From Pirellulales bacterium (GTDB lineage: Bacteria > Planctomycetota > Planctomycetia > Pirellulales > JAICIG01), in NCBI GenBank assembly GCA_035533075.1, contig DATLUO010000241.1, forward strand, positions 1-37,236: a DNA stretch of 37,236 nt. The letters run 5' to 3'. A program made the translations under genes and the position numbers. Shown here in pieces: positions 10,509 through 25,200 of this stretch (positions are counted from its first letter, which is position 1; every line of letters starts with the position of its first letter). The notes below the pieces were generated by a model. That model searched no databases, was not told the DNA's origin, and saw nothing but the letters and a program-made list of their open reading frames with translations.

Positions 10509-11855
10509 TTACACGCGCGAGAAGATCGAATCGCCGACGACGCCCGTGCTGTCGGAAAACGACTCTTGCTCGATGCCCAGCGAGTGCAGGATGCTGAGAA
10601 ACACGTTCGACATCCGCGTTTCGTCGCGGCGCCAGTAGACGCCGTGCTTGAGCCCCATATTCGCCCCGCCGGCGATCAGGGTGGGAAGATTCCTCGGGTT
10701 GTGCGTGGTGCTGGCGCCGCTGCCGAAGAGCACGATGCTGTTGTCCAGCACCGGGCCGCTCTTATCGCGGAACTCTTGCAGTCGCGCGAAGAAGTACGCC
10801 AGTTGCTCGCTCAGGAACAAGTCGTACTTGGCGAAATTCAACTGGCCGTCCTTGTCCTCGGCGTGCGACAGGCTGTGGTGCGTGCGGCTCAGGCCGAGCT
10901 TCAGCGGGAAAGTATCGCTGATGCCCATGCCGTCTTCGCGATTCAGCATGAACGCCACGCTGCGCGTGATGTCGGCGTCGAAGGCCAAGGCGATCAAATC
11001 GAACATGTTGCGGTAATACTCGCGCGGTTCGCCCTCGGGAGAGGCGTCGAGATTGAGGTGCGAGTAGTCCTGGGCTTTCAGCGGGATGTCGATCCATTTC
11101 TCCGAAGCGGTCAGCCGCGATTCGACTTCGTCGAGCGAGGTCAGGTACTGATCCATCTTCTCGCGGTCGGAGTTGCCCAGCCGCTTATCGAGCGAGCGAG
11201 CGCTTTCGAGCACGGCGTCGACCAGGCGGATGCGCCGCTGGAGTTGATCGCGCCGCGATTCGAGCGACGCCCGGTCGCCGCGAAACAGGCGATCGAACAC
11301 CCGGCGGGGACTGTTCTCGGCCGGGATCGGCTTGCCTTCCAGGCTGTACGAAATCGTGCCGGTGCGCGACAGAAAGCCTGTGCCGGCGTCGATCGACAAC
11401 ACCAGCGAAGGCTGGCGGCAGTATTGCTTGGTGTAGAGCGCGACGGCCTGGTCGAGCGCCACCGAGTTGTAAGCGCCCGGCTTGGGATTGTGCAGCGGGG
11501 CGCCGGTGAGCCACATGTCGGAGCAGACGTGCGGGTCGGCCTTGGGACCGCTCGGGTGGTACAGCCCGCCCAGGAAGCTCAATTGATTGCGAAACGGCGC
11601 CAGCGGTTCGGTCGATTTGCCGAACACGAACTGGCCGTTCTGCTCGGCCCTCGGGAACCAGCTCCAGTCGTCGATCGCGTGCTGCGGCCTCGGCAGCGAC
11701 ATGCCGTTGGCCGTGTAGAGGGCGCAGAATCGCCGGGGAATCTGCCCTGCAACCTCGTCGCCCATCGCGTCCAACACGGGCAGCGCCAACGAAACGCCGG
11801 CCAAGCCTTTGAGCACGGAACGACGATCGAGCTTCGCGGGTGCAGGCACAAGCAT
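10509..11855 (-). CDS. DUF1552 family Tat-exported protein
   Basis: A 448-aa protein of the DUF1552 family, common in planctomycetes and related bacteria; no biochemical role is established. The N-terminus [19 protein letters not shown] (twin arginines R11-R12) is a Tat signal, so the protein is probably exported folded. The C-terminal half has [20 protein letters not shown], typical of this family and of related DUF1501 sulfatase-like proteins. It lies 36 bases downstream of the di-haem DUF1592-group gene in the same direction, the usual pairing. For the ATG at 11855 the GAGG site is only one base away. The GTG two codons later (11849) has AGGA at 6-base spacing and may be the true start. 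Export together with a haem protein suggests a shared envelope process. Confidence 0.93.
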
Positions 11856-11891: not shown

Positions 11892-14800
11892 CTACTTCTC
11901 CAGGAACAACTCGCTTTGAACGACGAACCGGATGAGGTCTTGCAGGCGGTAACCGGCGGGCTTTGATTTTAGCCCCTCTTCCTTGAGGAATTCAAGTTCC
12001 TGGTAGCTCAGGCTGCGGCCCGCGGCGTAGCCGGCCAGGTGCTTGAGAAAGCTGAACGCCACCTGATCGAGCCGCTCTTCGGCCAGGTACTCGCGCAAGC
12101 CGCGGGCGTCGGCGATCTCCGTGCCGTCGGGCAGCGTCGATCGGGCGTCGACCGCTTGCCCGCTCTTGAACAGCCCGCCGGCGTCGAACTGCTCCAACGG
12201 CAGCCCCCAGGGGTCGATGCCTGAATGACACTTGGCGCAGCCTTCCTGATTACGATGCCGTTCGAGCTTCTGGCGGAGCGTGAGCTGCGCGCCGTCGTCC
12301 TGCGGCAGAACGGGCACGTTGGGCGGCGGATCGTCGGGCGGCTCGGCGATGATCTTCCGCGCCAGCCAGGCGCCGCGTTTGACGGGGTTCGCTTCCCGGC
12401 CGTCCGACAGTCCCGCGAGAATTCCGGCCTGGGCCAGCACGCCGCCCAGGTTCGCATGCTCGTGTTTGATCTCCACGAACTCGAAGCCGCGCTCGGTGCG
12501 ATCGGCCAGGCCGTAGTAGCTGGCGACGACCTCGTCGGCCACGATGAAGTCGGATTGCACGAGGTTTTTAAGCGGGAGATTGTGACGCACGAGATGCGCG
12601 AGAAACTCCACCGGCTCTTGCCGCAAGTGCGTCTTGGCGTGGCGGGTCAGCCTCGGATAACGCTGGCGATCGGTCTCGACGACGTCGAGCTTGTCGAGGT
12701 TCAGCCACTGCGAAGCGAACTCGCGGGCGAACTGGTCGAACCGCGGGTCCTGGATCATGCGTTCGGTCTCGGCGTCGAGCGAATCGTGCAACCGCCCGGC
12801 TGCGGCCAGCGACAGCAGCCGCTCGTCGGGCGTCGTGTTCCAGAGGAAATAAGAGAGTTTCGAGGCCAACTCGAACGGGTCGAGAGGCTCTGCCTCGGGG
12901 CTCTTGCTGTTTTCGATCAGGAACAGGAATTGCGGTGAAGTCAGCGCGACCAGCAGCGCGTCTTTGACGCTTTGCCGGAATTCGTTCGTCCGCGCGAACG
13001 AATCTTGCCACACGGCGAACAGCGCCGCTTGTTCCTGCTCTGAGACTGGCCGGCGGAAGGCCCGCGTGGCGAACGAACGCAGGATTTCGCCCGCGTAGAC
13101 GGCCGGCTCGGATTTGTGTTCCGAGTCAATAAAGATGTTGCCGTGCGTGGCCGGCGGCCAGGCGTCATAGAACGGCCCTTCGAAGTCCACGGAACGGACG
13201 AGCAACCGCGGCATGTCGCGGCCGTCGGTGTATTCGCTACGGACGCCGATTTCGCGGATGCCGGCCAGGTAGTTGACGTTGTCTTTCTCCACGTCGGGGC
13301 TGGGAAAGTTGGCGATGGCGCCTTCGAACACGTAGTCCTTCAGCTCCGAGGACGCCGCCGTTTGCGCATCGCCGACCGGCGCGAGCGTGCTGCCGCAATC
13401 GCGCCGCAAGCCGAGATGAACGCCGATTCGCGGCGAGCGGTTTTCGAAGATCGCGAAGCGTCGGGCCAGCTCGTGCGTTTCCTCCAAGGGCGTGAAGAGG
13501 ATGCGCAACGGCGCCGGCTTGCCGCCGTATTCAGCGGCCACAGCCAGCGGACCGGCCGGTAATCGGACGAGCAGAAACGCCGGTTGATGAAGCGTTCCGG
13601 AAAAGCGCCGCTGGCCCAGGCTGAGCGTCAGGACCTGCGGCTTCATGGAGGCACGGGCGCCCTCGCCCGTGACTGCCGCGCCGGGCGGGGGCGCCCGGCC
13701 CTCCATTGATTCGGCGCCGTTCGTCTTCAATTGCGCATCGACCTGATAGATGCCCGCCGATTCGATCGCGACCGTTTGCGGCTGCGTGAGATCTTCGACC
13801 GCGACAGCCCCGGGCGACGACGCATCGCTGCTGGCGGCGCCGGGATCGAGCAGCAGGCCGTCGTCATATTTGGCGGCCTTGATCGTCACGCGAAACCGGC
13901 CCAGATCGGGCAGCTCGCGGAGCGAGATTTTGAAGTTGGCCTTCGGCCCGTAAGTGCTGTCGACCTGAAACAACTCGTCGCTGGGAATCGCCGGCCGCAG
14001 CAACAGGCCCTCGGGAACCGTCTGATACGCCAGGCCTTTGGGATAGCCGTCCGAGCCGCGCATGCAGGCGAAGACTGCGTGATAAATGCTGTCGTACTCG
14101 CGCCAGCCGCGCACCGTGTCGTTGCCCTGATAGCCTTCGATGAAGCGGTACTTGCTTCGCATCACGAACGGCTGGTACGCGAACGGCTTCGTGGGTTGCA
14201 ACTGAGCGACTTTGAAGTCGTCGTTCTTGAGCAGATGGCTGAGGGCGCCGAGGATCAACTTGTCGGGACACGGCTCGGGGTTGATTTTCTCCCCCAGATC
14301 CATGCGGAAGTTTTGAATCTCGGGCGGCGAGGCCTCGTCGACGATCGAGCGATCAAGGGCCTTCTCCGCGATGCTGAAATAAGCTTCGACCAACAACGGC
14401 GAGAGCAACATCGTCCGGCCGTTATTCAAGAACCCTTCTTTGGAGACCGCGTCGGGCGGCAGCACTTCGGTCAAATCGTCTTCGATTGCCAAAAGATCTC
14501 GCAGCGTGTTGCGATATTGCGAGACGGTTAGCCGCCGCACGGAACCGTTCTTGGCCTGCTTGCGCGAGCGGACCATGACCAGCGCGTCGTCGATCCAGCC
14601 CGCGAGCAGTTGCCGCTCGTCGGCGGTCGGCTGGGGTTCGTCCTCGGGCGGCATCGTTTCGTCGGTCAGTTGCTCGCGAATCGCTTTCCAAAGGAACGCT
14701 CGCCGGCCTTCCAGCGAGCCGTCCAGGTGATCGACGCGAATGCCCGACTTCATCTTGTCGAGGTTGTGGCAGCGCAGGCAGTGTTTTTGGATCAGCGGCT

Positions 14801-14981
14801 GGATTTGCGTTTGAAACCGCTGCTGGATGGCGGCGACCTGGCCGGCGGCAGCTTCTTCGGCCGCGGGTGCGTTTTGGGCCAGCGTGTTTGCGATCTGAAA
14901 GATAAAGAGCAGGTTCGCCGTCGCCAGCACGGCAAAAGCGAAACGGAACTTCGACGTTGAATGCGAATGTGCGTGGGCCAT
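11892..14981 (-). CDS. DUF1587/1595/1592/1588/1585 multidomain exported di-haem cytochrome-like protein
   Basis: A 1029-aa protein from ATG 14981. A longer frame reaches 15134, but the putative -10 at 15040-15045 and the signal sequence right after MAHAHSHS favour the shorter start. The signal core is about 13-34, with cleavage near NTLAQ. Domains in order: N-terminal cytochrome-like region with haem motif CLRCH (C68, C71, H72); DUF1587 about 150-215 ([16 protein letters not shown]); a beta-rich insert about 300-560; DUF1595 about 630-690 ([15 protein letters not shown]); DUF1592 about 700-828 ([19 protein letters not shown]); DUF1588 about 855-945 with a second haem motif CAKCH (C915, C918, H919) and [13 protein letters not shown]; and DUF1585 to the end. 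The two motifs imply covalent c-type haems and a periplasmic redox role, but no substrate is known. Residues 426-446 are encoded by a repeat element. First gene of an operon with DUF1552. Confidence 0.94.
13645..13706. repeat. 62-base three-way-junction repeat inside the DUF1592-group gene
   Basis: Terminal inverted repeats ATGGAGG/CCTCCAT enclose two GC hairpins: CCGGGCG/CGCCCGG (7 bp, 4-base loop) and CACGGGCG/CGCCCGTG (8 bp, 4-base loop). It is translated in frame as a Gly/Ala/Pro-rich stretch ([20 protein letters not shown]) between otherwise ordinary beta-rich sequence. It looks like an extragenic-type repeat that has entered a coding region. Confidence 0.7.
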
Positions 14982-18561: not shown

Positions 18562-18675
18562 GTAGGTCAGGCTTTCCAGCCTGACGCCCACCGTAGGTCA
18601 GGCTTTCCAGCCTGACGGCCGTCAGGCTGGAAAGCCTGACCTACGGTGGGCGTCAGGCTGGAAAGCCTGACCTAC
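18562..18675. repeat. Axis of symmetry: four copies of a 24-base hairpin repeat
   Basis: Copies at 18562-18585 and 18593-18616 in one direction and, by mirror, at 18621-18644 and 18652-18675 in the other. Each starts GTAG and contains GTCAGGCTTTCCAGCCTGAC, an 8-bp stem with a TTCC loop. The inner copies are separated only by GGCC, the axis. The gene-free span between the two leuA copies, 18375-18862, holds this array, the GGCCGGTC hairpins and the leuA promoters. Confidence 0.9.
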
Positions 18676-22255: not shown

Positions 22256-25200
22256 ATGGCCCACGCACATTCGCATTCAACGTCGAAGTTCCGTTTCGCT
22301 TTTGCCGTGCTGGCGACGGCGAACCTGCTCTTTATCTTTCAGATCGCAAACACGCTGGCCCAAAACGCACCCGCGGCCGAAGAAGCTGCCGCCGGCCAGG
22401 TCGCCGCCATCCAGCAGCGGTTTCAAACGCAAATCCAGCCGCTGATCCAAAAACACTGCCTGCGCTGCCACAACCTCGACAAGATGAAGTCGGGCATTCG
22501 CGTCGATCACCTGGACGGCTCGCTGGAAGGCCGGCGAGCGTTCCTTTGGAAAGCGATTCGCGAGCAACTGACCGACGAAACGATGCCGCCCGAGGACGAA
22601 CCCCAGCCGACCGCCGACGAGCGGCAACTGCTCGCGGGCTGGATCGACGACGCGCTGGTCATGGTCCGCTCGCGCAAGCAGGCCAAGAACGGTTCCGTGC
22701 GGCGGCTAACCGTCTCGCAATATCGCAACACGCTGCGAGATCTTTTGGCAATCGAAGACGATTTGACCGAAGTGCTGCCGCCCGACGCGGTCTCCAAAGA
22801 AGGGTTCTTGAATAACGGCCGGACGATGTTGCTCTCGCCGTTGTTGGTCGAAGCTTATTTCAGCATCGCGGAGAAGGCCCTTGATCGCTCGATCGTCGAC
22901 GAGGCCTCGCCGCCCGAGATTCAAAACTTCCGCATGGATCTGGGGGAGAAAATCAACCCCGAGCCGTGTCCCGACAAGTTGATCCTCGGCGCCCTCAGCC
23001 ATCTGCTCAAGAACGACGACTTCAAAGTCGCTCAGTTGCAACCCACGAAGCCGTTCGCGTACCAGCCGTTCGTGATGCGAAGCAAGTACCGCTTCATCGA
23101 AGGCTATCAGGGCAACGACACGGTGCGCGGCTGGCGCGAGTACGACAGCATTTATCACGCAGTCTTCGCCTGCATGCGCGGCTCGGACGGCTATCCCAAA
23201 GGCCTGGCGTATCAGACGGTTCCCGAGGGCCTGTTGCTGCGGCCGGCGATTCCCAGCGACGAGTTGTTTCAGGTCGACAGCACTTACGGGCCGAAGGCCA
23301 ACTTCAAAATCTCGCTCCGCGAGCTGCCCGATCTGGGCCGGTTTCGCGTGACGATCAAGGCCGCCAAATATGACGACGGCCTGCTGCTCGATCCCGGCGC
23401 CGCCAGCAGCGATGCGTCGTCGCCCGGGGCTGTCGCGGTCGAAGATCTCACGCAGCCGCAAACGGTCGCGATCGAATCGGCGGGCATCTATCAGGTCGAT
23501 GCGCAATTGAAGACGAACGGCGCCGAATCAATGGAGGGCCGGGCGCCCCCGCCCGGCGCGGCAGTCACGGGCGAGGGCGCCCGTGCCTCCATGAAGCCGC
23601 AGGTCCTGACGCTCAGCCTGGGCCAGCGGCGCTTTTCCGGAACGCTTCATCAACCGGCGTTTCTGCTCGTCCGATTACCGGCCGGTCCGCTGGCTGTGGC
23701 CGCTGAATACGGCGGCAAGCCGGCGCCGTTGCGCATCCTCTTCACGCCCTTGGAGGAAACGCACGAGCTGGCCCGACGCTTCGCGATCTTCGAAAACCGC
23801 TCGCCGCGAATCGGCGTTCATCTCGGCTTGCGGCGCGATTGCGGCAGCACGCTCGCGCCGGTCGGCGATGCGCAAACGGCGGCGTCCTCGGAGCTGAAGG
23901 ACTACGTGTTCGAAGGCGCCATCGCCAACTTTCCCAGCCCCGACGTGGAGAAAGACAACGTCAACTACCTGGCCGGCATCCGCGAAATCGGCGTCCGTAG
24001 CGAATACACCGACGGCCGCGACATGCCGCGGTTGCTCGTCCGTTCCGTGGACTTCGAAGGGCCGTTCTATGACGCCTGGCCGCCGGCCACGCACGGCAAC
24101 ATCTTTATTGACTCGGAACACAAATCCGAGCCGGCCGTCTACGCGGGCGAAATCCTGCGTTCGTTCGCCACGCGGGCCTTCCGCCGGCCAGTCTCAGAGC
24201 AGGAACAAGCGGCGCTGTTCGCCGTGTGGCAAGATTCGTTCGCGCGGACGAACGAATTCCGGCAAAGCGTCAAAGACGCGCTGCTGGTCGCGCTGACTTC
24301 ACCGCAATTCCTGTTCCTGATCGAAAACAGCAAGAGCCCCGAGGCAGAGCCTCTCGACCCGTTCGAGTTGGCCTCGAAACTCTCTTATTTCCTCTGGAAC
24401 ACGACGCCCGACGAGCGGCTGCTGTCGCTGGCCGCAGCCGGGCGGTTGCACGATTCGCTCGACGCCGAGACCGAACGCATGATCCAGGACCCGCGGTTCG
24501 ACCAGTTCGCCCGCGAGTTCGCTTCGCAGTGGCTGAACCTCGACAAGCTCGACGTCGTCGAGACCGATCGCCAGCGTTATCCGAGGCTGACCCGCCACGC
24601 CAAGACGCACTTGCGGCAAGAGCCGGTGGAGTTTCTCGCGCATCTCGTGCGTCACAATCTCCCGCTTAAAAACCTCGTGCAATCCGACTTCATCGTGGCC
24701 GACGAGGTCGTCGCCAGCTACTACGGCCTGGCCGATCGCACCGAGCGCGGCTTCGAGTTCGTGGAGATCAAACACGAGCATGCGAACCTGGGCGGCGTGC
24801 TGGCCCAGGCCGGAATTCTCGCGGGACTGTCGGACGGCCGGGAAGCGAACCCCGTCAAACGCGGCGCCTGGCTGGCGCGGAAGATCATCGCCGAGCCGCC
24901 CGACGATCCGCCGCCCAACGTGCCCGTTCTGCCGCAGGACGACGGCGCGCAGCTCACGCTCCGCCAGAAGCTCGAACGGCATCGTAATCAGGAAGGCTGC
25001 GCCAAGTGTCATTCAGGCATCGACCCCTGGGGGCTGCCGTTGGAGCAGTTCGACGCCGGCGGGCTGTTCAAGAGCGGGCAAGCGGTCGACGCCCGATCGA
25101 CGCTGCCCGACGGCACGGAGATCGCCGACGCCCGCGGCTTGCGCGAGTACCTGGCCGAAGAGCGGCTCGATCAGGTGGCGTTCAGCTTTCTCAAGCACCT

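Follow-up and report, generated by a model that had tools for sequence, protein, structure and literature searches.

The host gene and the inserted element

The window analysed here, that is, the whole 37236-base contig of a Pirellulales bacterium, carries on its minus strand a gene (11892-14981) for a di-haem protein of 1029 amino acids with the Pfam domains PSCyt1, DUF1587, DUF1595, DUF1592, DUF1588 and DUF1585, directly followed on the same strand by a DUF1552 gene (10509-11855). The likely start of the di-haem protein is the ATG at 14981, which opens a signal-peptide-like sequence (MAHAHSHS...), and the presence of two CxxCH motifs supports the 'di-haem' assignment. The entire contig is identical to its reverse complement (0 mismatches; centre at 18618/18619), and all genes are doubled in mirror. 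This arrangement is almost surely an assembly artefact (fold-back), and one half therefore carries all the information. The fold point falls between copies of a palindromic REP, GTCAGGCTTTCCAGCCTGAC, which suggests that the assembly folded back at this repeat.

Downstream of the region encoding the PSCyt1 and DUF1587 domains and upstream of that encoding the other four domains, the gene contains an element of 62 bases (13645-13706, minus strand) that resembles a REPIN or BIME and consists of two inverted REP units. Its mirror copy at 23531-23592 on the plus strand was rejected as a second insertion because the contig is an exact palindrome, and represents the same locus. Read along the minus strand, the element starts with ATGGAGG (13706-13700) and the hairpin GCCGGGCG-CCCC-CGCCCGGC (13699-13680), which together make up the first unit (13680-13706), an exact match to the pattern GGAGGNNCGGGCGNNNNCGCCCG. 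After an 8-base spacer, GCGGCAGT (13679-13672), the second unit (13645-13671) follows in inverted orientation, as the hairpin CACGGGCG-AGGG-CGCCCGTG (13671-13652) and CCTCCAT (13651-13645); on its own, plus strand it reads ATGGAGG and CACGGGCG-CCCT-CGCCCGTG. Both hairpins are perfect, with 8-bp stems and 4-base loops, and the outer repeat pairs over 7 bp, so that an earlier note on this DNA, which described terminal ATGGAGG/CCTCCAT repeats enclosing two such hairpins, had read the anatomy correctly. Each unit has the dimensions of a REP (a GC-rich palindrome of 20-40 bp with a stem of >=7 bp and a loop of 2-5 bases), and the two units lie on opposite strands with their hairpins 8 bases apart, as in an inverted REP doublet. 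The unit can be summarized by the consensus RTGGAG followed by the hairpin CGGGCG-CCCY-CGCCCG.

The predicted folding of the element is stronger than that of all 200 dinucleotide shuffles (200/200, z = -4.65). As single-stranded DNA, the energies of the three-way 'clover' and of a single long hairpin are nearly equal, at -28.5 and -28.8 kcal/mol, whereas as RNA the long hairpin (-53.1 kcal/mol) is favoured over the three-way form (-43.2 kcal/mol) by about 10 kcal/mol. Thus, the three-way, cruciform-like fold that had been proposed for this sequence is possible in DNA but is not the sole fold and is not the one preferred in RNA. A hairpin of the strength predicted for the RNA might slow ribosomes.

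The open reading frame extends from 15134 to 11892 and runs through the element, which adds 21 Gly/Ala/Pro-rich residues. Counted from the ATG at 14981 these are residues 426-446, as in the earlier note, and in the longer frame from 15134 they are 477-497. The frame is kept because the insertion added about 63 bases (the 62 bases of the element and one flanking base), a multiple of three corresponding to 21 codons. The 63-base sequence is free of stop codons in five of its six frames; for the gene to survive, it was therefore mainly necessary that the length fitted and that the site tolerated an addition, and a harmless landing is not improbable.

Distribution of the unit and the search for a transposase

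We scanned the genome of this bacterium (8.54 Mb in 296 contigs) for further units. With the mirror copy left out, the pattern GGAGGNNCGGGCGNNNNCGCCCG occurs exactly at seven places, two in the host gene and five on another contig, C69, which provides the additional intergenic copies that one would look for in the case of a mobile repeat. All five lie in a single intergenic tract (C69:5364-5536), where two of them point one way and three the opposite way. The tract is bordered by a transketolase and a sulfatase gene that converge on it with their 3' ends, a position that is typical for REPs (PMC3733652). The next-best matches in the genome have 2 mismatches, and the totals for up to three mismatches equal those of a reversed-pattern control. 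Hence the unit is repeated and mostly extragenic, but with one such extragenic locus only, and its copy number, two loci in the genome, is very low for a REP family. The two contigs that hold the units have GC contents of 63% and 64% and tetranucleotide correlations with the rest of the genome of 0.71 and 0.61, with values of 0.35-0.70 for single 3-kb loci, and this composition gives no indication that they are contaminants. The nearest orthologues of the host protein, however, come from a different family within the order, which leaves a small probability that the host-gene contig stems from another member of the order.

Across 395 other genomes of the order, we found two exact matches to the unit, against six for the reversed control; beyond chance, the unit is absent from these genomes. 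BLAST comparison of the element with 295 of these genomes yielded nothing convincing either; weak matches in five genomes of the order fall within long open frames, do not show the two hairpins and were judged to be due to chance. A much wider scan with GGAGGNNCGGGCGCCCYCGCCCG, covering 84,980 species genomes (GTDB), identified 61 stretches, of which 53 belong to Acidobacteriota by their record titles (Terriglobia, Acidobacteriales and the like). The others are one Lentisphaerae MAG, one Kiritimatiellae MAG and six chance-like stretches in GC-rich Actinobacteria and Methylorubrum. Four Acidobacteriota genomes contain 77-138 matches to the unit within 2 mismatches on both strands, compared to 0-9 for the reversed control.

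Among 53 Acidobacteriota units, the stem has 9 bp in 41, and the sequence reads GTGGAGG in 26 and ATGGAGG in 19. The dinucleotide preceding GGAGG is accordingly GT (26) or AT (19), giving GTGG or ATGG, the latter being also the form of the host-gene copies and of the inverted units on contig 69; for REPs, a conserved tetranucleotide, GTAG or GTGG, is described at a distance of 0-2 bases on the 5' side of the stem (PMC6006769). In a set of 63 units including those of the present genome, the two pairs at the foot of the stem outside the constant core are standard-paired in 61 and 55 units, compared to 46.6 and 32.4 after shuffling; the test is inflated by copies that are related to each other, yet the pair type clearly changes, with A-T, C-G and G-C at one position and G-C and C-G at the other. 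Furthermore, two-hairpin doublets closed by TGGAG/CTCCA are present in Acidobacteriota as well (e.g., L142 and L154). The abundance in Acidobacteriota, the co-variation in the stem and the occurrence of doublets there lead us to regard the TGGAG units as a REP-like family and the element in the window as an inverted doublet of this family. At many of the Acidobacteriota loci inspected (L100-L160), the unit is followed by a second, different hairpin of the CCGAGCGAAGCTCGG type, forming a composite of about 45 bases. In the literature searched, we found no description of this composite element and no paper describing the TGGAG family of Acidobacteriota; in the RepRanger paper, which lists Acidobacteriota genomes with counts (PMC12306157), we noticed no mention of the TGGAG unit.

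The earlier note had also called for a search for a REP-associated tyrosine transposase. Genes of this type are present, with 12 Y1_Tnp (PF01797) matches at about ten loci in the genome, but the unit does not occur at the 8 loci that we examined, and neither of the two loci with exact units has a Y1_Tnp match. Likewise, none of 30 transposase loci inspected in Acidobacteriota is convincingly flanked by the unit, and the search for cognate RAYT candidates in this genome and in four Acidobacteriota genomes produced none that was convincing. At one locus of Acidobacteriaceae bacterium RYN_4 (L208), a Y1 transposase gene is followed within about 1.5 kb downstream by three GGAGCG-variant units, in a region that also holds several other palindromic repeats, e.g., around CAGCGGCTAAAGCCGC; this locus is a possible home of the cognate enzyme. 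Given this outcome of the transposase search, we class the element as REP-like by its anatomy and distribution and do not claim complete membership of a RAYT/REP system; the element may depend on a transposase acting in trans or on one that has been lost.

The genome additionally harbors a canonical GTAG-tagged REP family, GTAG-GTCAGGCT-TTCC-AGCCTGAC, in the window (18562-18675, around the centre of the palindrome) and on contigs 41, 79, 107, 113, 143, 145, 193 and 194. It is found at 17 places exactly and at 10 with one mismatch, mirror copies included, and forms several inverted pairs of 44-80 bases. The 12 PF01797 matches together with this second, GTAG-type family indicate that Y1 machinery exists in this bacterium.

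The receiving loop in orthologous proteins

We retrieved 28 orthologous loci from genomes of the order, 27 of which span the site of the element. In the alignment, the 21 residues are absent from all 27 (27/27), as would be expected of sequence gained by insertion and as the earlier note had anticipated for the residues near 426-446. The nearest full-length orthologue has about 64% protein identity (roughly 46-68% for the orthologues in general) and the loop is variable, so that the comparison is one at the protein level. Together with its in-frame translation, this absence from the orthologues of an otherwise conserved protein marks the element as an in-frame palindromic insertion similar to the RPEs.

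The orthologues fall into two groups with respect to the loop. In 12 of the 27, it contains no folded domain (e.g., L161, ...LYQIDVFCAPGEPQGLFFLQLG...), whereas in the remaining 15 a Laminin_G_3 (LamG) domain (PF13385) of about 160 residues occupies the site of the element; the two alignment rows tested matched this family with E values of 1.9e-25 and 4.1e-27. The LamG-bearing loci are among L169-L184, with the domain at the equivalent of residues 470-500 in the numbering from 15134. If the 21 residues are not counted, the segment running from I/LYQ to the next LG is 25 residues long in the window protein, compared to 22-27 in the LamG-less orthologues L161, L162, L163 and L166; removal of the insertion thus leaves a loop of the length seen in the shortest LamG-less proteins.

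A structure model of residues 360-690 (counted from 15134), based on an alignment of 21 sequences, has a mean pLDDT of 78.7. Residues 472-497, which correspond to the element and its edge, have pLDDT values below 50 and lie between two beta strands in blocks above 90, so the 21 residues are probably disordered according to this model. A fold search with the loop-bearing domain returned no match at E <= 0.001. The 21 residues are most likely a near-neutral linker extension without a function of their own.

Origin of the insertion and comparison with known systems

With considerable confidence, we interpret the element as an inverted REP doublet (a REPIN or minimal BIME) that was inserted in a DUF1592-group gene, the most likely agent being a Y1-type transposase that acted in trans. 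The proposal of the earlier note that a palindromic element moved into the gene without breaking the frame is supported by its absence from the orthologues, the copies on contig 69 and the abundance of the unit in Acidobacteriota. A chance palindrome in GC-rich coding DNA that was never mobile might be envisaged, considering that the genome has 63% GC and that many short GC palindromes exist in the window; however, the genome has 5 more exact units outside the gene, Acidobacteriota have dozens of copies, exact matches in the related genomes stay below those of the control, the folding stands far outside that of shuffled sequences and the orthologues lack the residues. The second locus in the genome and the Acidobacteriota copies refute this explanation, to which we attach practically no probability.

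A different history would be the loss of a domain: the ancestor had a LamG domain at this site, which disappeared through a deletion that the REP doublet brought about or at whose junction the doublet was captured. Of the 25 orthologues in a tree built from the remainder of the protein, 15 carry LamG at the exact site. The window protein groups with LamG-bearing proteins (the fork, with support of 87/87, is drawn open) and in the alignment the element sits neatly in the place of the domain. Nevertheless, an alternative clade that unites the window protein with its LamG-less close relatives is not rejected (p-AU 0.106 and 0.074), twelve LamG-less orthologues contain no repeat, so that loss or absence of the domain needs none, and insertion into an already short loop accounts for the same facts. 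We consider it unlikely that the element marks a domain loss, although the lineage may once have had LamG. The presence of LamG requires six changes on the tree, indicating that the loop site has been remodelled repeatedly. The insertion could also be adaptive, if the 21 residues altered a protein interaction or the mRNA hairpin slowed translation, with the beta-sandwich domain folding separately. The strong predicted RNA hairpin (-53 kcal/mol), the preserved frame and the extra folded domain at this site in other lineages agree with such a role, but the insertion is known from a single genome, the model predicts disorder for the added residues, which are of low complexity, and stop-free frames are expected by chance in 5 of 6 cases, which renders an adaptive origin very improbable. 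Similarly low odds can be given to a more elaborate scenario in which the REP family crossed from Acidobacteriota to the planctomycete and the REPIN was domesticated as a linker where LamG had been lost, a mobile repeat thus replacing a folded domain.

By analogy with the REP literature, insertion of the mobile doublet would have started with a Y1-type (HuH, RAYT/TnpA-REP) transposase that recognises the doublet in its clover fold on single-stranded DNA and moves it in trans. The doublet would then have landed in the surface loop between two beta strands where many orthologues carry Laminin_G_3, and the approximately 63 added bases would have kept the frame, yielding a disordered linker that is probably neutral. 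The family is abundant in Acidobacteriota, present in a genome whose PSCyt/PSD and DUF1552 gene content is that of a planctomycete and missing from the rest of the order, which is indicative of REP movement between phyla; the family may have arrived from Acidobacteriota or from a donor common to both. The locus offers a clear case in which a mobile palindrome gave rise to new protein sequence, in a bacterium that is not among the species investigated to date and with a receiving loop that is defined by many orthologues and a predicted structure.

REPINs are inverted REP doublets that fold into a long hairpin or a two-hairpin 'clover', and their movement in trans by RAYTs has been proposed (PMC3116915). 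The element shares with them the two inverted units, the short spacer and the possibility of both folds, but published REPINs are mostly extragenic and high-copy and have a cognate RAYT, whereas here two loci exist, the doublet lies inside a gene and no cognate enzyme was found. In the case of the Y1 transposases, those of class 3 in Planctomycetes and Acidobacteria have atypical structures, and the canonical ones use a GT[AG]G guide (PMC6006769). The Laminin_G_3 insertion of the orthologues occupies the same loop of the same protein family, which tolerates added sequence, but is a folded domain of about 160 residues rather than a 21-residue repeat-derived stretch. Rickettsia RPE-1, RPE-4 and RPE-6, as far as they are cited in PMC3733652, are in-frame palindromic insertions in apparently functional protein genes and are similarly translated into new residues; they are unrelated in sequence to the present element and have many intragenic copies per genome, compared to one gene known to be hit here. 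REP dimers or groups that encode 20 to 30 amino acids have been reported within ORFs of several species, among them O. terrae, a member of the Verrucomicrobia and the PVC group (PMC3733652). Like the present element, these lie inside an ORF, but their tags are GTAG or CGTC, where the units found here have (G/A)TGG-AG in front of the stem, and genes for DNA synthesis and repair are numerous among the listed hosts, unlike the DUF1592-group gene described here. The kind of event is thus already known, and the TGGAG family, the host gene and the cross-phylum pattern are, as far as we could see, new.
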